Shown piece by piece: positions 13,452 to 61,900 of a stretch of DNA of 64,000 bases. This DNA is from Sipunculus nudus (lineage: Eukaryota; Annelida; Sipuncula; Golfingiida; Sipunculidae). Made by a program: the position numbers and the translations under genes. The DNA is taken from positions 30,073,033 through 30,137,032 of the forward strand of contig CM049309.1 of NCBI GenBank assembly GCA_026874595.1, read 5' to 3'. The notes under the pieces were generated by a model. That model did no database searches. It was not told the origin of the DNA and saw only the letters and a list, made by a program, of their open reading frames with translations. Within the stretch, counting starts at the first letter, position 1; each line of letters begins with the position of its first letter.

Positions 13452-15250
13452 ATAAACTAGAATATGGGTAGTCAGCAAGAGCCAAAATCAGAGTGGGAAA
13501 AGTGAAGTGAGGCATTGACTGAGTGGCAAGGGGAAATTGAGTGAGGCATGTTGCATAATAGCCTGGATGTCTGCAGCCGAAATATGTATGTAGGTTGCGC
13601 CACCTACCACAAAATCCAGAAAGCTGTCCAAGATGTATAAACATGCAAAATTTTATGCAGATAAGTCAAACCACTACTGAGATATGAGTGATTTTAGCCC
13701 ACGGCAGACAAACAGACGAACTCTGTGCCAAAATGGTGGCAAGTGGTGCCACCAATTTTGTATATGATTAAGAGCTATGTGAGATCTATACACATGCAAT
13801 ATTTCAGGGGGATATGTCAAACCAGTCCTGAGATATAAGACTGAATGTCTGCAGCATATACATAAATATTGGTGGTGCCATCTGCCAAAAAATCCAGAAA
13901 GCTATCAAAGATGTATATACATGCAAAATGTTAGGCAGATAAGTCAAACCACTACTGAGATATGAGTGATTTTAGCCCACGGCAGACAAACAGATGGACG
14001 CTGTGCAAAGATGGTGGCAGGTGGCACCACCAATTTCGTGTATGATTAAGAGCTATGTGAGATCTATACACATGCAAAACTTCAGGGGGATATGTCAAAC
14101 CAGTCCTGAGATATAAGCCTGAATGTCTGCAGCATAAACATAAATGTAGGTGGCGCCGCCTGCCACAAAATCAAGAAAGCTATCAAAGATGTATAAACCT
14201 GCAAAATTTTAGGCAGGTATGTCAAACCACTGCCGAAACATGAGTGATTTTATCCCATGGCAAACAAACAGATGGACACTGTCCAAAAATGGTGGCAGGT
14301 GGCGCCAACAGTTTTGCGTATGATAAAGAGCTATGTGAGATCTATGAGCATTCAAAGTTTTGGCCCAATCAGTCAAATGGTTCCTGAGATATGAGCTTGG
14401 ATGTCTGCAACGTAAATTTGAATGTAGGTGGTGCCACCTGTCATAAAATCAAGAAAGCTACGAAGAATGTATGAACCTGCAAAATTTCTGGTTGATAAGT
14501 CAAACCACTGCCGAGATATGAGTGATTTTATCCCAAGGCAGATGAACGGATGGACGCTGTGCAAAAATGGTTGCAGATGGCACCACTAGTTTTGCGTATG
14601 ATAAAGAGCTATGGGAGATCTATATACATGCAAAATTTTAGCGGAACTGGTCAAACGGTTCTCGAGATATGAACTTAAATGTCTGCAGCTTAAATGTGAA
14701 TGTAGGTGGCGCCACCTGTCATTAAATCAAGAAAACTATCCAAGCTGTATAAACCTGCAAAATATTAGGCAGATATGTCAAACCACTGCCGAGATATGAG
14801 TGATTTTATCCCATGGCGAACAAACAGATGGACACTGTCCAAAAATGGTGGCAGGTGACGCCAACAGTTTTGCGTATGATAAAGAGCTATGGGAGATTTA
14901 TACACATGCAAAATTTTAGCGGAACTGGTCAAAAGGTTCTCGAGATGTGAACTTGAATGTCTGCAGCTTAAACGTGAATGTAGGTGGCACAACCTGTCAT
15001 TAAATCAAGAAAGCTGTCCAAGATGTATACACATGCAAAATTTCAGGTGGGTAAGTCCATCCAATGCAGAGATATGAGTGTTTTTATCCCAAGGCAAAAT
15101 TACAAATATTGTCCCAAATATAATTTTTATAAAAAATAATGAGAATCATATGATTTTTTAAAATGAAATATAACTGATATGATTATTAAAATAATATTAA
15201 AGAATATATTCATGAATGCATTCATGAATACATTTTGAAAGTATTTGCAC

Positions 15251-43865: not shown

Positions 43866-43997
43866 ATGGCTAAAGAAAAGCTGGACAGAAGCACAGCTGC
43901 AAAGCAACTTAAAGTTGGGAAGGAAAAAGCAGCCAACAAAAGAAAATCATCTGAGAGGAGTGAAACCAAGTTTGAAAAGAAGGCAAAGAAACTGAAG
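43866..43997 (+). CDS. PUM3: PUM3 coding exon 1
   Basis: 44 codons from MAKEKLDRSTAAKQLK to KKAKKLK. The start context AAAATGG is favourable and lies six bases after an acceptor. The upstream frame is open but reads through the predicted splice acceptor, so the upstream methionine at 43761 is unlikely. Donor AAG|GTAGTA, phase 0. Confidence 0.85.
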
Positions 43998-46900
43998 GTA
44001 GTATTTCATTCAGAAGGCCCTTGTTATATACTGTAGTGATGAGGATTATGGTAAAATTTACTGAAACACCTCACCAACACATTTTCCACGTCAGACGTCT
44101 GTCTGTCCCAACCTGCATTGTCAAATATCTCAAAAACTGTCAGCCACATGATGACCACATGACTTGTTTGTGATTGACATCCAGAGGTGGAGGCGGCTGA
44201 ACTGTATTCTGCACTCCAAAATTGTCTTTCCACCTTCTTCAGATAAATGAGTAATTATGAAAAGGTTTGAGCATAAAAACGTCAGAGCAAGGGGAATTTA
44301 ATGAGTACAAAAATAAATTTTCATTATTTTTCAAGATGGCATTAACACAGAAACCTAGAGTTTGCTGATTTTCAAAATTTATATTTTTTTATTTAGTTAA
44401 TACATAAAAATGCATAATTTTCATCAGTTAGATAATACCCCCTTGTAACTAAATTCAAAGTTATTTTTGCAGAAGTTTCAATTACCTGGCTGTGACTGAC
44501 ATGTAATTGCTACTTGCAGAGCATAAAGTTCAGATCTTCAGTAATATAAAAATTGTTTTAAAAAAAAGTTGTAAGACAAGTTAAAACACTGATGACCTTG
44601 ATCCTGATTTTCAAGGGGAAATGCTAAAATATGGGCTTTGCAAACCCCGTAATTTGAAGCATTGCACAATTTCCCTAAGATTGAATACACAAATTTTTTT
44701 AACAGTTTCTCAGAGGTATTTAAAATCTGGTGACCTTGACCAAGAACTTAAGATTAACTTTGGCAGATATAAAGGATTTCTTGTGAAAGCAGTAACATTT
44801 GAAGTATTGCTTGTATTTTTCACCGATTTGATACACAGATTTTTTCAAATGATTTCATGGATGAGTTAAAAAAAATTATGGCTTTGACCTTGATTTTCAA
44901 CCATGCCCTATGAGGAATTAAAAAAAAAGTCCTTCATTTATACTTCATAGTCAAATCAGGGAAATACAAGACTGTTGAAATAATTTAGATTTTCTTTTAA
45001 TTTGGGTTGTCCATGGGGGAGACACCTGCATGTTTTTTTTATTGTGAAACAGAGCAATTCAAGTGAAAATACATACAATAATACTTATTTTAAGACCATT
45101 AAAACTGTCATTCTTAATGGTTGTTACAGCCAGATATATGAGGTCATACATGGAATTTTGTCTGCAGGTGTAAATATGAACCTCCCCCCAGTTTTTATTG
45201 CATGTGGAAGAAAACATAATATAATGTTTTATGATATATTTTTTGTGATCCTGGCTTCACAATCATTGTTCCAAGGAAATAAACAGTATGTTCCTGTGTA
45301 AAGCTCACAAAGATTTTGAGTTGTATTCTATTTTAAGAAACCAGATAGCCTACTTTCATGTTGTCAGCATAAGTGCATGAGCAATATTCATGTGATGATA
45401 ATCTTTATTTCCTTTGATATGTTCAAAGGGGTGGTGGCAAGGCGAGGTACCACTGTATATATGCTACACAGACTGTACTACCAAACGCAGTTTAAATTCT
45501 CATATGAAAATTTTACCTTTTTTCCATATGCTAGACAACTTGAGCTGCGCATCGTAATCCATGGGTCCTTTGTTATTTATTGTAGGTGATGCAACCAGGA
45601 ACCTCCAAGCTGAAAAACATGAAAGGCATGAGCATGCCACTTTCATCTGATAATGCTCCAGGAGCTAAAAAGAGAAAATTTACTGGAAAAAAGATAGGTA
45701 GGACATTTAGAATCTGTTCTAGATGTCTCCTTTAAAACACAAAATAAGGCATTCTGTGAGCCATGGGCCAGAAACATGAATTTTGGCACTCTGGCAGTCA
45801 CACTTGTCTCAGTGTTTAAGGTTGCTGCACAAAAAAAATATTCACATTAGATCATAAAATTGAAATAATGTGCCTCATCTGCACCCTTAAAAATTATCAG
45901 CATGCCAAGTTATAGCAGAGATGGATCAATATTCTTCAAGTTGATTGCAATATTTGAATATATCATATGTGTGCATGCAGATTTATGTACTGTTATGTCT
46001 GTTACCAGAAATCTCAGGAATGGGTGCAGCTATCTGCTCCAAATTTTACAGTAATGTTGATTATTCCCTCTTCCTAGGTAGAACAGAACATATATCACTT
46101 AAGCTTTTGTGTCATTGAGAACCTTTAGAGAAAGATTACCTATAGGTTACCTACAATTGAGTTAAATTATTTTAAAAAATCTTTACAAAACTTTTAATTT
46201 AGCTGATCAATAATATTTATGATATTGAGTCTATATATTTCCTGTTTGCTACCCAGTGTCTCAGGAATTGCTGGAGAGGAACCAGATTTTATGGGCATAT
46301 TACTTCAAGACTTATTTGTCAATGTAAGCTGCAGAGGGGGCTACTGATATTGTTTAAGTTTCTATTCTGGACCTGTTTCTTAGTATTTTTTTGTTTCATT
46401 CGGGTGTATAATTAAACTTTTATGTAATAATGTGTTTTTTTCTTATTTTACAAATAACCTGTCACTTAAAAATGAGAAAAAAACTTTGTTTTGAGGTAAT
46501 GATAACATTATTTTTATTCATTATTTTTATTCACTGATGTATGTCAAATAATATGAATAAATATAGTTTTGATAAATATGATTATTTTACAGAGAGAAAA
46601 ATAAAAAAGGGGTTCCAAGTTTTTTTTAAATATATGAGGCTTATGAGTCACTCACTTTTGGAATTTAAAAAAAAATATACTAATGTATGCATGAGGTACT
46701 GTAATTGTAATTACTCTTGAGCATTGTTTCCATGGGATAGTATATACATATCATGATGGCTGTATCAGATGCATCACAGAAACAGAAGAAGCCAAAGTTA
46801 GAGGAGATGACAAAGAAGGAGAGGAAGAAACAGAGACGGATGATGAAAAGCAACTTTGAAGATATTACCTCAATGAAGCGAATCTGGGAGGACATAAGGA

Positions 46901-49900
46901 GGTAACTGGCTTAGTGATTCCTCAGAATACAGTCTCATTTGTGATGGGGTGTGTGTGTGCATGTATGTGTGTACATGGGGTGAACATGCTTAATGATTAC
47001 AGCTCAGGGGATGTTTATGATGGTGTGTATAGGAGGTAACAATAAGCTGATTATAACATGCTTAGTGATATTTTTGGTTTAGAATAGAGTCACACTTTGG
47101 CAGTGGGGAGGTAACTTGCCCAGTTATACTTTAAAAAGAGTCACACTTTTAGCAGTGGGGAGGTAACTTTCCAGTTGATACTTCAGAATAGAGTCATATT
47201 TTTGGGAGTGGGGAGGTAACTTTCCCATTGATACTTCAGAATAGAGTCATACTTTAGGGAGTGGGGAGGTAACTTCCCCATTGATACTTCAGAATAGAGT
47301 CATACTTTTGGCAGTGGGGAGGTAACTTTCCCATTGATACTTCAGAATAGAGTCACACTTTTAGGAATGGGGAGGTAACTTTCCCACTGATACTTCAGAA
47401 TAGAGTCATACTTTTGGCAGTGGGGAGGTAACCTGCCCAGTGCTACTTAATACTAGAGTCTTACTTTTGGCAGTGGGGAGGTAATTTGCCCACTGATACT
47501 TCAGAATAGAGTCACACTTTTGGCAGTGGGGAGGTAACTTGCCAGTTGATACTTAAGACTAGAGTCACACTTGGCAGTGGGGAGGTAACTTGCCCAGTGC
47601 TACTTAATACTAGAGTCACACTTTTGGGAGTGGGGAGGTAACTTGCCCATTGTTATTTCAGAATAGAATCATACTTTTGGCAGTGGGGAGGTAACTTGCC
47701 CAGTGATACCTAAGACTAGAGTCACACTTTTGGCAGTGGGGAGGTAACTTGCCCATTGATACTTCAGAATAGAGTCATACTTTTGGCAGTGGGGAGGTAA
47801 CTTGCCCAGTGATACCTAAGACTAGAGTCACACTTTGGCAGTGGGGAGGTAACTTGCCCATTGAAACTTCAGAATAGAGTCACACTTATGGCAGTTGGGA
47901 GGTACTTTGCCCATTGATACTTCAGAATAGAAGTCCCCTAAACTCTAGTTATGAATGGAAAAAAGTAAACTATGTTATGTGTAAAAGAATTGCCACATAT
48001 GATTCATTATGAACTAGGGCTAATGTCAGGTGTAAACAGAATTGCCACGGATGATTCAGGATAAGCTAGGACTAATACAGGTGTAAACAGAATTGCCACA
48101 TATGATTCATTATAAACTAGGGCTTATGTCAGGTGTAAACAGAATTGCCACGGATGATTTAGGATAAGCTAGGACTAATACAGGTGTAAACAGAATTGCC
48201 ACAGATGATTCATTATAAACTAGGGCTTATGTCAGGTGTAAACAGAATTGCCACAGATGATTCATTATAAACTAGGGCTTATGTCAGGTGTAAACAGAAT
48301 TGCCACAGATGATTCATTATAAACTAGGGCTTATGTCAGGTGTAAACAGAATTGCCACAGATGATTCATTATAAACTAGGGCTTATGTCAGGTGTAAACA
48401 GAATTGCCACAGATGATTCATTATAAACTAGGGCTTATGTCAGGTGTAAACAGAATTGCCACGGATGATTCAGGATAAGCTAGGACTAATACAGGTGTAA
48501 ACAGAATTGCCACATATGATTCATTATAAACTAGGGCTTATATCAGGTGTAAACAGAATTGCCACAGATGATTCATTATAAACTAGGGCTTATGTCAGGT
48601 GTAAACAGAATTGCCACAGATGATTCATTATAAACTAGGGCTTATGTCAGGTGTAAACAGAATTGCCACGGATGATTCAGGATAAGCTAGGACTAATACA
48701 GGTGTAAACAGAATTGCCACAGATGATTCATTATAAACTAGGGCTAATGTCAGGTGTAAACAGAATTGCCACGGATGATTCAGGATAAGCTAGGACTAAT
48801 ACAGGTGTAAACAGAATTGCCACATATGATTCATTATAAACTAGGGCTTATGTCAGGTGTAAACAGAATTGCCACAGATGATTCATTATAAACTAGGGCT
48901 TATGTCAGGTGTAAACAGAATTGCCACGATGATTCAGGATAAACTAGGACTTATGTCAGGTGTAAACAGAATTGCCACAGATGATTCATTATAAACTAGG
49001 GCTTATGTCAGGTGTAAACAGAATTGCCACGGATGATTCAGGATAAGCTAGGACTAATACAGGTGTAAACAGAATTGCCACAGATGATTCATTATAAACT
49101 AGGGCTTATGTCAGGTGTAAACAGAATTGCCACGGATGATTCAGGATAAGCTAGGACTAATACAGGTGTAAACAGAATTGCCACATATGATTCATTATAA
49201 ACTAGGGCTTATGTCAGGTGTAAACAGAATTGCCACAGATGATTCATTATAAACTAGGGCTTATGTCAGGTGTAAACAGAATTGCCACGGATGATTCAGG
49301 ATAAGCTAGGACTAATACAGGTGTAAACAGAATTGCCACAGATGATTCATTATAAACTAGGGCTTATGTCAGGTGTAAACAGAATTGCCACAGATGATTC
49401 ATTATAAACTAGAGGTTGTGTCAGGTGTAAACAGAATTGCCACGGATGATTCAGGATAAGCTAGGACTAATACAGGTGTAAACAGAATTGCCACATATGA
49501 TTCATTATAAACTAGGGCTTATGTCAGGTGTAAACAGAATTGCCACAGATGATTCATTATAAACTAGGGCTTATGTCAGGTGTAAACAGAATTGCCACAG
49601 ATGATTCATTATAAACTAGGGCTTATGTCAGGTGTAAACAGAATTGCCACGGATGATTCAGGATAAGCTAGGACTAATACAGGTGTAAACAGAATTGCCA
49701 CAGATGATTCATTATAAACTAGGGCTTATGTCAGGTGTAAACAGAATTGCCACGGATGATTCAGGATAAGCTAGGACTAATACAGGTGTAAACAGAATTG
49801 CCACATATGATTCATTATAAACTAGGGCTTATGTCAGGTGTAAACAGAATTGCCACAGATGATTCATTATAAACTAGGGCTTATGTCAGGTGTAAACAGA

Positions 49901-52900
49901 ATTGCCACGGATGATTCAGGATAAGCTAGGACTAATACAGGTGTAAACAGAATTGCCACAGATGATTCATTATAAACTAGGGCTTATGTCAGGTGTAAAC
50001 AGAATTGCCACGGATGATTCAGGATAAGCTAGGACTAATACAGGTGTAAACAGAATTGCCACATATGATTCATTATAAACTAGGGCTTATGTCAGGTGTA
50101 AACAGAATTGCCACAGATGATTCAGGATAAACTAGGACTAATACAGGTGTAAACAGAATTGCCACAGATGATTCATTATAAACTAGGGCTTATGTCAGGT
50201 GTAAACAGAATTGCCACAGATGATTCATTATAAACTAGGGCTTATGTCAGGTGTAAACAGAATTGCCACGGATGATTCAGGATAAGCTAGGACTAATACA
50301 GGTGTAAACAGAATTGCCACAGATGATTCATTATAAACTAGGGCTTATGTCAGGTGTAAACAGAATTGCCACGGATGATTCAGGATAAGCTAGGACTAAT
50401 ACAGGTGTAAACAGAATTGCCACATATGATTCATTATAAACTAGGGCTTATGTCAGGTGTAAACAGAATTGCCACATATGATTCATTATAAACTAGGGCT
50501 TATGTCAGGTGTAAACAGAATTGCCACGGATGATTCAGGATAAGCTAGGACTAATACAGGTGTAAACAGAATTGCCACATATGATTCATTATGAACTAGG
50601 GCTTATGTCAGGTGTAAACAGAATTGCCACAGATGATTCATTATAAACTAGGGCTTATGTCAGGTGTAAACAGAATTGCCACATATGATTCATTATAAAC
50701 TAGGGCTTATGTCAGGTGTAAACAGAATTGCCACAGATGATTCATTATAAACTAGGGCTTATGTCAGGTGTAAACAGAATTGCCACGGATGATTCAGGAT
50801 AAGCTAGGACTAATACAGGTGTAAACAGAATTGCCACAGATGATTCATTATAAACTAGGGCTTATGTCAGGTGTAAACAGAATTGCCACAGATGATTCAT
50901 TATAAACTAGGGCTTATGTCAGGTGTAAACAGAATTGCCACGGATGATTCAGGATAAGCTAGGACTAATACAGGTGTAAACAGAATTGCCACAGATGATT
51001 CATTATAAACTAGGGCTTATGTCAGGTGTAAACAGAATTGCCACGGATGATTCAGGATAAGCTAGGACTAATACAGGTGTAAACAGAATTGCCACAGATG
51101 ATTCATTATAAACTAGGGCTTATGTCAGGTGTAAACAGAATTGCCACGATGATTCAGGATAAACTAGGACTTATGTCAGGTGCAAAAAGAATCGCCACGG
51201 ATGATTCAGGATAAACTAGGGCTTATGTCAGGTGTAAACAGAATTGCCACAGATGATTCATTATAAACTAGGGCTTATGTCAGGTGTAAACAGAATTGCC
51301 ACAGATGATTCATTATAAACTAGGGCTTATGTCAGGTGTAAACAGAATTGCCACGGATGATTCAGGATAAGCTAGGACTAATACAGGTGTAAACAGAATT
51401 GCCACAGATGATTCATTATAAACTAGGGCTTATGTCAGGTGTAAACAGAATTGCCACGATGATTCAGGATAAACTAGGACTTATGTCAGGTGCAAAAAGA
51501 ATCGCCACGGATGATTCATTATAAACTAGGGCTTATGTCAGGTGTAAACAGAATTGCCACATATGATTCATTATAAACTAGGGCTTATGTCAGGTGTAAA
51601 CAGAATTGCCACAGATGATTCATTATAAACTAGGGCTTATGTCAGGTGTAAACAGAATTGCCACGGATGATTCAGGATAAGCTAGGACTAATACAGGTGT
51701 AAACAGAATTGCCACATATGATTCATTATAAACTAGGGCTTATGTCAGGTGTAAACAGAATTGCCACGATGATTCAGGATAAACTAGGACTTATGTCAGG
51801 TGCAAAAAGAATCGCCACGGATGATTCAGGATAAACTAGGGCTTATGTCAGGTGTAAACAGAATTGCCACGGATGATTCAGGATAAACTAAGGGATTATG
51901 TCAGGTGTAAACAGAATCGCCACGGATGATTCAGGATAAACTAGGGCTTATGTCAGGTGTTAACAGAATTGCCACAGATGATTCAGGAATCAGGATAAAC
52001 TAAGCCTTAAGACAGGTGTAAACAGAATTGCCACGGATGATTCAGGATAAACTAGGGCTTATGTCAGGTGTTAACAGAATTGCAACAGATGATTCAGGAT
52101 AAACTAGGCTTATGTCAGGTGTAAACAGAATTGCCACAGTCGATTCAGGATAAACTATGGCTTATTACAGGTGTAAGCAGAATTGCCACATATGATTCAT
52201 TATGAACTAGGGCTAATGTCAGGTGTAAACAGAATTGCCACGGATGATTCAGGACAAACTAAGACTTACGTCAGGTGTAAACAGAATTGCCACAGTCGAT
52301 TCAGGATAAACTATGGCTTATTACAGGTGTAAACAGAATTGCCACATATGATTCATTATAAACTAGGGCTTATGTCAGGTGTAAACAGAATTGCCACGGA
52401 TGATTCAGGATAAGCTAGGACTAATACAGGTGTAAACAGAATTGCCACATATGATTCATTATAAACTAGGGCTTATGTCAGGTGTAAACAGAATTGCCAC
52501 GATGATTCAGGATAAACTAGGACTTATGTCAGGTGTAAACAGAATTGCCATGGTTGATTCATTATAAACTAGGGCTTATGTCAGGTGTAAACAGAATTGC
52601 CACAGATGATCCAGGATAAACTAGGGCTTTTGTCAGGTGAAAACAGAATTGCCATGGTTGATTCATTATAAACTAGGGCTTATGTCAGGTGTAAACAGAA
52701 TTGCCACGATGATTCAGGATAAACTAGGGCTTATGTCAGGTGTAAACAGAATTGCCATGGCTGATTCATTATAAACTTGGGCTTATGTCAGGTGTAAACA
52801 GAATTGCCACAGATGATCCAGGATAACCTAGGCCTTATGTCAGGTGAAAACAGAATTGCCATGGTTGATTCATTATAAACTAGGGCTTATGTCAGGTGTA

Positions 52901-55900
52901 AACAGAATTGCCACAGATGATTCATTATAAACTAGGGCTTATGTCAGGTGTAAACAGAATTGCCACAGATGATTCATTATAAACTAGGGCTTATGTCAGG
53001 TGTAAACAGAATTGCCACGGTTGATTCATTATAAACTAGGGCTTATGTCAGGTGTAAACAGAATTGCCATGGTTGATTCATTATAAACTAAGGCTTATGT
53101 CAGGTGTAAACAGAATTGCCACGGATGATTCAGGATAAGCTAGGACTAATACAGGTGTAAACAGAATTGCCACATATGATTCATTATAAACTAGGGCTTA
53201 TGTCAGGTGTAAACAGAATTGCCACGATGATTCAGGATAAACTAGGACTTATGTCAGGTGCAAAAAGAATCGCCACGGATGATTCAGGATAAACTAGGGC
53301 TTATGTCAGGTGTAAACAGAATTGCCACGGATGATTCAGGATAAACTAAGGGATTATGTCAGGTGTAAACAGAATCGCCACGGATGATTCAGGATAAACT
53401 AGGGCTTATGTCAGGTGTTAACAGAATTGCCACAGATGATTCAGGAATCAGGATAAACTAAGCCTTAAGACAGGTGTAAACAGAATTGCCACGGATGATT
53501 CAGGATAAACTAGGGCTTATGTCAGGTGTAAACAGAATTGCAACAGATGATTCAGGATAAACTAGGCTTATGTCAGGTGTAAACAGAATTGCCACAGTCG
53601 ATTCAGGATAAACTATGGCTTATTACAGGTGTAAACAGAATTGCCACATATGATTCATTATGAAGTAGGGCTAATGTCAGGTGTAAACAGAATTGCCACG
53701 GATGATTCAGGACAAACTAAGACTTATGTCAGGTGTAAACAGAATTGCCACAGTCGATTCAGGATAAACTATGGCTTATTACAGGTGTAAACAGAATTGC
53801 CACATATGATTCATTATAAACTAGGGCTTATGTCAGGTGTAAACAGAATTGCCACGGATGATTCAGGATAAGCTAGGACTAATACAGGTGTAAACAGAAT
53901 TGCCACATATGATTCATTATAAACTAGGGCTTATGTCAGGTGTAAACAGAATTGCCACGATGATTCAGGATAAACTAGGACTTATGTCAGGTGTAAACAG
54001 AATTGCCATGGTTGATTCATTATAAACTAGGGCTTATGTCAGGTGTAAACAGAATTGCCACAGATGATCCAGGATAAACTAGGGCTTTTGTCAGGTGAAA
54101 ACAGAATTGCCATGGTTGATTCATTATAAACTAGGGCTTATGTCAGGTGTAAACAGAATTGCCACGATGATTCAGGATAAACTAGGGCTTATGTCAGGTG
54201 TAAACAGAATTGCCATGGCTGATTCATTATAAACTTGGGCTTATGTCAGGTGTAAACAGAATTGCCACAGATGATCCAGGATAACCTAGGGCTTATGTCA
54301 GGTGAAAACAGAATTGCCATGGTTGATTCATTATAAACTAGGGCTTATGTCAGGTGTAAACAGAATTGCCACAGATGATTCATTTTAAACTAGGGCTTAT
54401 GTCAGGTGTAAACAGAATTGCCACAGATGATTCATTATAAACTAGGGCTTATGTCAGGTGTAAACAGAATTGCCACGGTTGATTCATTATAAACTAGGGC
54501 TTATGTCAGGTGTAAACAGAATTGCCATGGTTGATTCATTATAAACTAAGGCTTATGTCAGGTGTAAACAGAATTGCCATGGTTGATTCAGGATTCCTAA
54601 GAGTTTGAGTGTTGCCATGGAGGATGTTGTATTCATTCATAAATAGGTTACATTTGCATAGAATTGCAGAACCAAATATAATAAATTGTAATAAACTAAG
54701 CACTTTGCATGTGTTTAAAATAGAGCACAATAGTAATATTGAGCCTTTGCTGATAACAGCTTTTGTTGTGCTTTCTTTTGATCTTGTTTGCATCTGAAAA
54801 ATTAAAGAAATGGTGCAAGTTGTACATGTTGCCATTAATTATGTAAGTTCCTATTTTGCATTTCTTATTTTAGGAGGAATATATCTAAAGAAAAAAGGAC
54901 AGAGCTCATTCAGAAACTGTTCAATGTGTGCAAAGGAAAAATCTGTCAGGTATGATACAGCACTCCATGAAGTCTTTGTTACAGACATAGAACCACCTGC
55001 TATACATTCTTGATTGATTAAACCATATGGTCTACCAAGAGAAAATACATTTGTTATTTAAGGAAACAGATTAGTTTTATGAAAATGTACATACAGTGAA
55101 GTCTCGTTATAATGAACCGGTTGGTTCCATGCGAATTAGTCGTAAATCGAATTTCCATGCCAAAGGAATTTTGGAGTCGCCCTATGCAGTTTTTGTGATA
55201 TGGCAGAAAATTGATAAAAGCACATTCACCCTAAAAGAACAAAACATTAATGATAAAATGTGTTTATTACATAATGAACATATATACAAAGCAAACTTTA
55301 CAATGTTAATGTACATAATGAACATATATACAACTTGAAAGCAAAATATACATCAGTGTACATAATCTGCTGACAAATCTCTAGTGAAATATTCCATGAT
55401 GCTAGCCTGTTTGTATCCATATGGTGAATCCAGCACTGTGGCAGCATGCCACAGATTTTCCAGTATGTTCGCCCTATCCGCGGCGTCTGGTTGCTGTTCA
55501 AAGAACCTGATCGTGGCTAGCAGACCATCTCTGGCATCAGCCCTCTTACTTGTTCAACCTGTGAATCATTCATGTCTTCGTTTGTGTCTTCTTCCTCCGC
55601 CTGGTCCGCTGTTGCTCCGACGATCAAAAGAATACTTGCATCGTCCTACTCGGCTTCGGTTTCTGCAGCTGAATCGATCCGACATACTGCTTCGCTCCCA
55701 GTCGCTTTTAAAAACCGAGACCCCGGATGTCTGCCTCTAGTGCCTGGACTAAGCAAGTGTCACTCTCTTCAAGGGACCCTTGGTTTTCTTGTATGGTGCC
55801 TGGCAAAATGCAAGTGTGCTTCTAGCAGTTGGCGATCGTCGCTGCATCTACCTGTGACCAGGCATTCTTGGTGAAACCCAAAGCCTGACGGATGTCGGCT

Positions 55901-58900: not shown

Positions 58901-61900
58901 TGTCCGTCCACACAAATTTGTTTCCAGATGATAACTCAAGGTTGGATTGACATATGGATTTCAAACTTGACTTACATATGGCCCACCACTAAAGCAAGAA
59001 CATATATGATTTTGGGGTCACAAGGTCAAAGGTCAGGGTCACAGGACTCACATATTTAAAAAGATTATGGCTGCATTTTAAGCCAAGCTTTTCATCCCAA
59101 ACTTTCCATTTTGCGCATTTAGCTGACTTGCCAGTATGGGGAGAGCATAAATGAATTTGGGGTCACATGGTCAAAGGTCAAGGTCACAGGGGCCATCTGT
59201 TCACAAATTAGTTTCCAGATGATAACTCCAGTTTAGTTTGACATATTAGTTTCAAACTTAACTCATATATGACTCACCACTAAAGTAAGAACCGTGTGGA
59301 TTTTGGGGTCCAACAGGCAAAAGTAAAGGTCACAGGACTCATTTTTTTTAAAAAGAATGCATATGCATTTGAAGCCTAACTTTTCATCACAAACCTTCCA
59401 TCTTCAAGAAATTGCTCACCTGGCAATAGTGGAAGATTCTGTTCAATTTTGGGGTCATGAGGTCAAAGGTAAAGGTCACAGTACCCACTTATTAGGAAGA
59501 TTGTGGATGCATTTTAAGCCAAACTTTTCATCCCAAACCTTCCATCTTGCAGATATAGCTGAGCTGCCAATAGGGGAAGGACCTGATTGATTTGGGGGTC
59601 ACAAGGTCAAAGGTCATGGTCACAGGGGTTCATCTGTCCACATATTTGTTTCTGGATGATAACTCAAGTTTGGATTGACATATTGGTTTCAATTTTGACT
59701 TATATATGACCCACCAATAATGTAAGAACCCTTTTGATTTTGGGGTCATGAGATCAAAGGTCAAGGTCACAGGACCCATTACTTTAGAAAGATTGTGGAT
59801 GCTGTTAAGCCAAACTTTTCATCTCAATCCTTCCATCATCGACATGTGGTGCACCTGCCAATAGGGGAAGTTTCCTTTTGATTTTGGGGTCACAAGGTCA
59901 AAGGTTAAGGTCACAGGGGCCATCCATTCACAAATTAGTTTATGGATGATTACTCCTGTTTGGGTAGACAGGTTAGCTACAAACTGATCTCAGGACCAAT
60001 ATTTTGGAAAACCTCATAAACCTATATCCTATAGAAAGATGTTGAATGGCCATGCTGGTCCATCTCATGGAGATATAGAACAAGAATACACAGAAAAAGT
60101 CGGATCACCCTGTATCGGAATTGAACCCATGACCCTCCGATTGCCGGTCATCTGCTCTACCACTTAGCTAACAGGGATCCCCAACTTCCTCTGTGTATCA
60201 GCACACTTTCATAGGAACCAGCGAAGTGACGTCACTACTGTGACTGGTATTATACATACTACATGTGTCTACACGGCGATTTTGCATGCAGCAGTGATAA
60301 ACTGATGGCCTTTTATGATGTGCATCAAATATTATATAGAAAGATGTTGAATGGCCATGCTGGTCCATCTCATGGAGATATAGAACAAGAATACACAGAA
60401 AAAGTCGGATCACCCCATATGGGAATCGAACCCATGACCCTCTGATTGCCGGTCGTCTGCTGTACCACTGAGCTAACAGGGATCCCCAACTTCCTCTGTG
60501 TATCAGCACACTTTCATAGGAACCAGCGAAGAGACGTCACTACTGTGACTGGTATTATACATACTACATGTGTCGACATGGCGACTTTGCATGCAGCAGT
60601 GATAAACTGATGGCCTTTTATGGTGTGCATCAAATATTTTTCTATTATTTTACTATAAAATGACAACAATCATGTCAGTTTCTCAGCTGTGATTACATCT
60701 AGTGTCCAAAAACCTGGTGTGTTTACTGATCACAAGTGGATGCCCTGTAGTAATCACCCTGTCTGTCTGTTTGTCTAGCTGTCATATAGCCTCATAGACA
60801 AATGCAGCTGAGCGTCGAGACCCATGGGTCCCTAGTTTTATTATGAGATATTGAAATAATTTTCATATATCTTAATCTCAGATTATAGGATAGCATAATG
60901 TTTTTCACCAAACAATCATAATCTGTTAGAAATTCACACCTTTTAAAGGTCTTTAATTGTTTGAACACCTTCATGAATCACATGGACTGGCCCAGACTGT
61001 TTTGTAAGGTATAAATACTACAAAGAACTTGTTTGGAGTGTCACAGTATTTTAACAGAATGTTTATGTTTTTCTTTGTATTATATTTTCAGACCACCTAG
61101 TAGCCATGTGCAAATCAAAATATGCCAAGTTTCTGGTTGTTAGGTTTCTTAGATATGGGTAAGTACATCCTAATTGCTTTAATTGAAAATATCAGTTGTA
61201 AAAGATAATGTCATGGTGGGACAGATGTTGGCCAGTTTCGAAAGCTATTCCTTGAGCTTCCGGCATACCCATTGTTGTACTAATACTATGGATTGCTCCT
61301 CCCCCCTCTACACCCATCAATGTGCACAGAATAAATGCCATCAACATTCACCTAATGGCTAAAAGCCTTCACTCCTTAGGGCTAAAGAGGTAAAATCTGT
61401 GGTATTCTAGGATAAATATGACCCCTATAACTTTTGAAGTACTAAATATTCTCAGATTGTCAGTCTGTCAGAGGAGTTTTAAATTGTGATATCAAGTTTT
61501 TATCCTCAAATTTCACACACAAGTTGTTTCCACTACTTTTGGAGAAAGTTCCAGAACTGGTATATAATGCATGTATAAAATTTGGAGCTGGATTAGCATT
61601 TGCAATACCATGCTCTTATTGGTTTGATTACAATTCTTTGTTCCGTGCTCACCCTGATGGGTAAACCAAGAAAACTTTTGTATACAACACAGCAGTTAAA
61701 ACAAAAGGAGATTTTGGACAACTGCAAAATATAACCACTGTCTTAGGAACATACTTAAAATATTCCTTTAAAAATTTCATTCATTTTATAATTAAAAATT
61801 GTTCCTGGTATTTAACTCCAATAGTTAATAAGTCAATCCTTTGAATATTCTGCTGACTCATGCTGCTTATTATCTGACGTTATATTGTAGGACCAAAGAA

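Follow-up and report, generated by a model that had tools for sequence, protein, structure and literature searches.

The closest described counterparts of the element considered here are the tandem repeats across exon-intron boundaries in the amphioxus Adh3, globin and troponin C genes, which have been termed "mirages" and to which similar repeats in lancelet PGBD5 have been likened; for the lancelet Adh, troponin C and globin mirages, either no aberrant mRNA or no disturbance of splicing is reported (PMC3087553, PMC3902484). In humans, CBS carries a 31-bp variable number tandem repeat (VNTR) denoted c.1444_1467+7(16_21) (PMC2630376), two downstream repeat units of IFI6 are reported to serve as donors (PMC4526556), and a survey describes variable tandem repeats at the exon-intron boundaries of genes that lie in segmental duplications (PMC2812944), while in a potato RdRp gene an intron has been gained via tandem duplication of an intron-exon boundary (PMC4974935). 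No published report from a comparable genome was found in a partial literature surveyed mostly through titles and the beginnings of abstracts. A similar arrangement is present in a 64,000-nucleotide stretch of the Sipunculus nudus genome (assembly GCA_026874595.1, contig CM049309.1, positions 30,073,033 to 30,137,032; hereafter the window), where the 5′ splice site of intron 3 of the PUM3 gene and a 53-bp minisatellite within the same intron appear, on firm sequence grounds, to share a common ancestry.

The splice site in question closes exon 3 (46769..46901, plus strand, as are all PUM3 features given here), which ends ATA AGG AG in phase 2, and the intron opens with GAG|GTAACT at 46902. The minisatellite lies downstream, at 47081-47931 according to Tandem Repeats Finder (TRF; period 53, 16.2 copies, 86% matches), and its units follow one another head-to-tail, as in the minisatellites that define mirages, with 16 unit starts in 47107..47931 each marked by GAG|GTA (16 GGAGGTA sites from 47107 to 47898, 51-53 nt apart). 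Splice signals within the copies, another trait of mirages, are likewise found, since 13 array copies contain GGAG|GTAACT. Although only 0.14 occurrences of the word GGAGGTAACT are expected in the window, it is found there 14 times, with 13 sites in the array and the remaining one at the exon 3 donor. Set against the array without gaps and in register, the donor context at 46898-46943 is 70-78% identical to 14 of the units across 46 nt, and its alignment score of 37 exceeds the null maxima of 26 obtained both from 2,798 window pieces and from 2,000 shuffles. With the array masked, an nhmmer profile built from the 16 units ranks 46898-46942 first in the window (E = 2.3e-6, 23.7 bits), ahead of a runner-up at E = 0.44. 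Outside the splice motif, 26 of the 36 nt that follow GGAGGTAACT equal the unit consensus, a value reached by none of 112,218 window 36-mers in fixed register (maximum 23), and the maximum after 101 other GGTAA sites is 17, so the splice consensus alone is insufficient to explain the likeness. With two small gaps allowed, the similarity extends to 46949 and thus spans a full unit, which defines a donor copy at 46898..46949 consisting of 4 nt of exon, the donor GT at 46902-46903 and about 48 nt of intron. The preliminary description of this DNA, which had called the donor context a diverged copy of the unit, is borne out by these results: its coordinates are correct within a few bases, its count of about 16 copies is right (13 of them with the full GGAGGTAACT), and the identity, which at chance level would have refuted it, lies above chance.

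Quite probably, the PUM3 array is a mirage-type minisatellite that arose through duplication of the boundary and subsequent turnover, with the first donor held fixed and the remaining ones left as passive decoys. In such a scenario, some 53 bp across the exon 3/intron 3 boundary would have been tandemly duplicated, and ordinary minisatellite turnover would have amplified and homogenised the exon-distal copies; the one at the exon would have been kept as the working 5′ splice site as the adjoining ones decayed, and the downstream GAG|GTAACT copies would act as passive decoys that leave splicing undisturbed. One source of intron length would then be the intron's own splice signal.

The gene itself is well delimited. 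AG/GT ends are found for exon 1 (coding part 43866-43997), exon 2 (45586-45697), exon 3 and exon 4 (54874..54949), the last of which provides the acceptor of intron 3 as judged from its frame and splice ends, and a single open frame runs through the four joined exons. The joined protein matches PDB 4wzr, the Pumilio domain-containing protein KIAA0020, which we take to be PUM3, with E = 3e-14 in an alignment that includes exon 3 and spans the exon 3/4 join, and all five matches of the protein in the 1.43-Gb genome fall at its own gene. Between the two exons, intron 3 holds two minisatellites, that of 53 bp and a second of 52 bp.

One or two decayed copies appear to intervene between the donor and the array. 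The better supported, copy C (47032..47106; masking of the array leaves a profile match at 47054-47096 with E = 0.048), consists of GGAGGTAAC, which is followed by extra bases, then a donor-like TAACATGCTTAGTGAT and an array-like AATAGAGTCACAC, and it shares CTTAGTGAT with the donor copy. Copy B (46974..47031) is tentative and strongly decayed; it has 14 of 15 nt in common with copy C but agrees with the donor copy or the units at only about half of the positions, and its comparison with the array gave no significant similarity. Past the motif, the array units have an identity of 0.57-0.66 with the donor copy, of 0.62-0.86 with copy C and of 0.75-0.98 with the unit at 47740, and such a likeness that increases away from the exon is what decay at a minisatellite's edge should produce.

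Arrays of the same kind are found elsewhere in the genome. A search for three tandem strong donors was followed up at the upstream edges of 23 arrays among the matches listed, 13 from AGGTRAGT ×3 and 10 new ones from CAGGTAAGT ×3. In four of the 23, the exon leading up to the repeated donor has clear protein homology, namely to the ABC transporter C family (ABCC; L024, E = 9e-9), 3-hydroxyacyl-CoA dehydrogenase (HADH; L026, E = 1.9e-8), a thioredoxin domain (L033, E = 8.3e-11) and a PH domain (L021, E = 9.4e-4). Two further cases are weak, L016 with a likeness to alpha-catenin (whole-sequence E = 0.0066, best-segment E = 0.58; Pfam Vinculin 0.088) and L032 with one to DNA-PKcs (E = 0.17). Nine more loci are candidates by their open frames, seven of which also show an acceptor-like site (L012, L014, L018, L019, L025, L030 and L031) and two the open frame alone (L013 and L015); no Pfam match was obtained for any of the nine, nor a PDB match for L019 and L013, the two of them that were compared with the PDB. 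No exon is visible at L011, L023, L027 and L028, the 123 nt open at L029 were not read as an exon, and L022 is doubtful.

In a rough test, with a threshold chosen post hoc as one of four and overlapping null positions, a frame open for 114 nt or more runs up to the first donor in 17 of the 21 arrays whose edge was reached, compared with 30% of 3,573 positions in the flanks (binomial 2.2e-6, Mann-Whitney 1.0e-4); L017 and L020, where the fetched piece ended while still inside the array, were excluded, and for L012, L022 and L032 the start was chosen manually, with an error of about 2 nt in L012 and L022. The end of the exon is itself repeated over 20-36 nt, at identities from 32/36 to 30/30, in L014, L016, L019, L021, L024, L025, L030, L031 and L033. 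The ungapped extension into the exon is short in L026 (3 nt), L032 (10 nt) and L015 and L018 (11 nt each), and is 0 nt in L012 owing to its misplaced start. In four control arrays of the reversed motif, the open frames span 54-102 nt without a visible exon, and three control-array peptides gave no Pfam match below E = 0.12.

On the acceptor side, nine of the 14 distinct arrays among the matches listed were fetched, one of which (L045) ended within its own array, and two of the nine end in protein-homologous exons, of DOCK (L042, E = 1.4e-19) and USP39 (L046, E = 2.4e-16). Together with the donor cases, these indicate that arrays have been seeded at both boundaries. Counted as matches and not as arrays, AGGTRAGT ×3 occurs 2,175 times against 1,438 for its reversed form, CAGGTAAGT ×3 393 times against 128, and the acceptor motif ×3 861 times against 1,157. 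At the level of arrays, the donor motif shows no excess in the first 7.6 Mb of C1, with two arrays against four for the reversed motif among the matches listed, and random seeding in a repeat-rich genome is thus enough to account for the class; donor arrays were not shown to outnumber chance arrays, and a special mutability of splice sites is not claimed. That splice-boundary minisatellites load this genome throughout, at the donors and acceptors of tens of genes or more, and form a recurrent source of intron lengthening and of variable protein segments well beyond amphioxus is a tentative proposition, possible but one we lean somewhat against. The number of near-identical donors at the start of an intron would then range from three (L019) to at least 38 (the array of L026). 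Units of L015 (33 bp), L024 (42 bp) and L025 (42 bp) are free of stops over the four units read, and the 48-bp unit of L033 stays open for 62 codons; if a later donor were used, these four arrays would add in-frame peptide repeats. Introns with serial near-identical donors would, should the proposition be true, constitute a natural library, and such donors, at known spacing, lend themselves to examining in a natural setting which of several equal 5′ splice sites the spliceosome selects.

For the PUM3 locus, the direction from donor to array is likely, because one copy sits on a conserved coding exon, the gradient runs from the exon and units of the sister arrays contain 20-36 nt of exon end. 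Several points weigh against it or against the relationship as a whole. The exonic part of the detectable homology amounts to the four nucleotides GGAG, the intronic part being clear, and given these four nucleotides the direction from exon to array leans on analogy and on the gradient, which would be expected at the edge whichever came first, the donor or the array. When register is left free and the whole array is searched, intron nucleotides 7-59 score 29, which is reached by three of 10,196 null pieces. Inclusion of 40 nt upstream of GGAG in the profile leaves the borders of the match nearly identical (46897-46943, E = 3.4e-6), so that detectable similarity ends, GGAG excepted, at the exon end. 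This last observation would suit an opposite course of events, in which a minisatellite first formed from unrelated intronic DNA and a deletion or shift then brought a unit to the exon, where it became the donor. We regard this as unlikely, since it fails to explain the genuine exon ends within the units of sister arrays, and exon 3 codes for a stretch conserved to human, with GGAG lying within its last codons. Of the earlier proposal that the minisatellite grew from the PUM3 5′ splice site, the shared ancestry accordingly stands, and the direction is likely rather than proven.

As to the decoys, the preliminary description had noted many GAG|GTAACT sites in the intron. Such decoys lie at 47036 and from 47111 to 47902, and nearly all of them equal the true donor in computed pairing with U1 small nuclear RNA (snRNA), the 5′ end of which is canonical. 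The duplex with U1 is computed at -6.6 kcal/mol both for the true exon 3 donor and for 15 of 17 decoys tested, the other two having -6.7 and -5.7 kcal/mol; the donors of PUM3 introns 1, 2 and 4 reach -7.9, -9.4 and -7.3 kcal/mol. Such near-equal pairing makes competition possible. Read-through beyond 46901 gives AGG TAA, an arginine and an immediate stop, and splicing from a decoy would place this TAA directly after IWEDIRR. The decoys could hence be imagined to function, either by competing for U1 and yielding immediate-stop mRNAs that tune the level of PUM3, or by holding U1 to shield the 8-kb intron from premature polyadenylation, and the reported use of downstream repeat units as donors in IFI6 (PMC4526556) favours this and counts against purely passive decoys. 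It nevertheless appears improbable, more so than a preexisting array, as the lancelet mirages are reported to be harmless to splicing (PMC3087553, PMC3902484), and the unrelated 52-bp array contains 115 AGGTG sites in two forms with computed energies of -6.8 (85 copies) and -7.2 kcal/mol (30 copies), which means that the 53-bp array is neither the sole possible U1 sink nor special in its U1 pairing. Most probably, splicing continues to proceed from the exon-proximal donor.

The 52-bp minisatellite (47971..54594 by TRF, about 127 copies) occupies most of intron 3, and many of its units contain CAGGTGTAAAC. Its kinship to the 53-bp array or the donor, suggestive in a hand alignment, is unsupported by the tests: its likeness score is equalled by 219 and 208 of 3,000 shuffles in the two directions and by 93 of 3,032 tandemised window pieces; the profile of the 53-bp array gives no match to it within the best 20 rows for the window, and its own profile gives three matches to the 53-bp array in nine rows, none significant (E = 1.9 to 3.1). 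For U1 snRNA, 42 scored matches in the genome, all with the same score, form two tandem clusters at C6:50.26-50.37 Mb and 88.24-88.30 Mb and are spaced mostly about 2.8-2.9 kb apart.

The remaining explanation, that the likeness reflects the 5′ splice consensus or a dispersed repeat motif, has a negligible probability and is refuted at the level tested, for although the splice consensus accounts for six of the ten core bases in common and two other genomic arrays carry GGAGGTAACT, the 26/36 identity lies outside the core, the core 12-mer GGGGAGGTAACT is not enriched in the genome (91 sites against 88 for the reversed word) and the locus matches itself only. In the 1.43-Gb genome, the 1,081 bp at 46880-47960 have their own locus as the sole match in a search that weak or common-word matches may escape, and a fragment of a dispersed repeat or transposable element was rejected, related copies elsewhere in the genome not having been found. 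Of the 91 GGGGAGGTAACT sites, 31 fall in the 53-bp array and the L009 array, and GGGAGGTAACT was likewise rejected as a dispersed motif. The two further arrays with GGAGGTAACT, L009 (32 bp) and L010 (41 bp), can be accounted for by chance, because the reversed control also gave two matches.

Elsewhere in the window, two tandem arrays with units of about 280 bp (283-1689 and 13563-15096) have similar consensus units and both contain GTAGGTGGCGCCACCTG. On the minus strand, two tRNA-like matches barely over the Rfam threshold (60106-60177 and 60411-60482) lie one in each half of a 305-bp tandem repeat.

The origin of the array, earlier thought unusual, has published precedents in the mirages (PMC3087553, PMC3902484), similar cases in CBS and IFI6, and sister arrays in the same genome. 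The amphioxus mirages of Adh3, BflGb6/BflGb9 and troponin C are, like the PUM3 array, minisatellite-like repeats of exon-intron boundaries, on the donor or acceptor side and with cryptic AG/GT signals in the copies, whereas the PUM3 unit includes only about 4 exonic nt, its exon-nearest copies are decayed and it resides in a different animal genome. The CBS VNTR also crosses a donor, with 24 exonic and 7 intronic nt in 16-21 copies if its published notation is read so, yet it is young and polymorphic with a mostly exonic unit, and L024 and L033 are closer to it than PUM3 is. The minisatellite of IFI6 (6-16, G1P3) has a 12-bp unit. Its units supply donor sites, the use of which is reported, whereas those of PUM3 carry potential ones. 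The potato RdRp case has tandem duplication of a boundary in common with PUM3, with a new intron as the outcome there and an existing intron lengthened here. Judging by the sister arrays, minisatellites of exon-intron boundaries seem to recur in a further animal genome, where a simple motif search can survey them. A minisatellite derived from an exon-intron boundary is thus a phenomenon known from amphioxus and human, of which the PUM3 array represents a new example and not a new kind.

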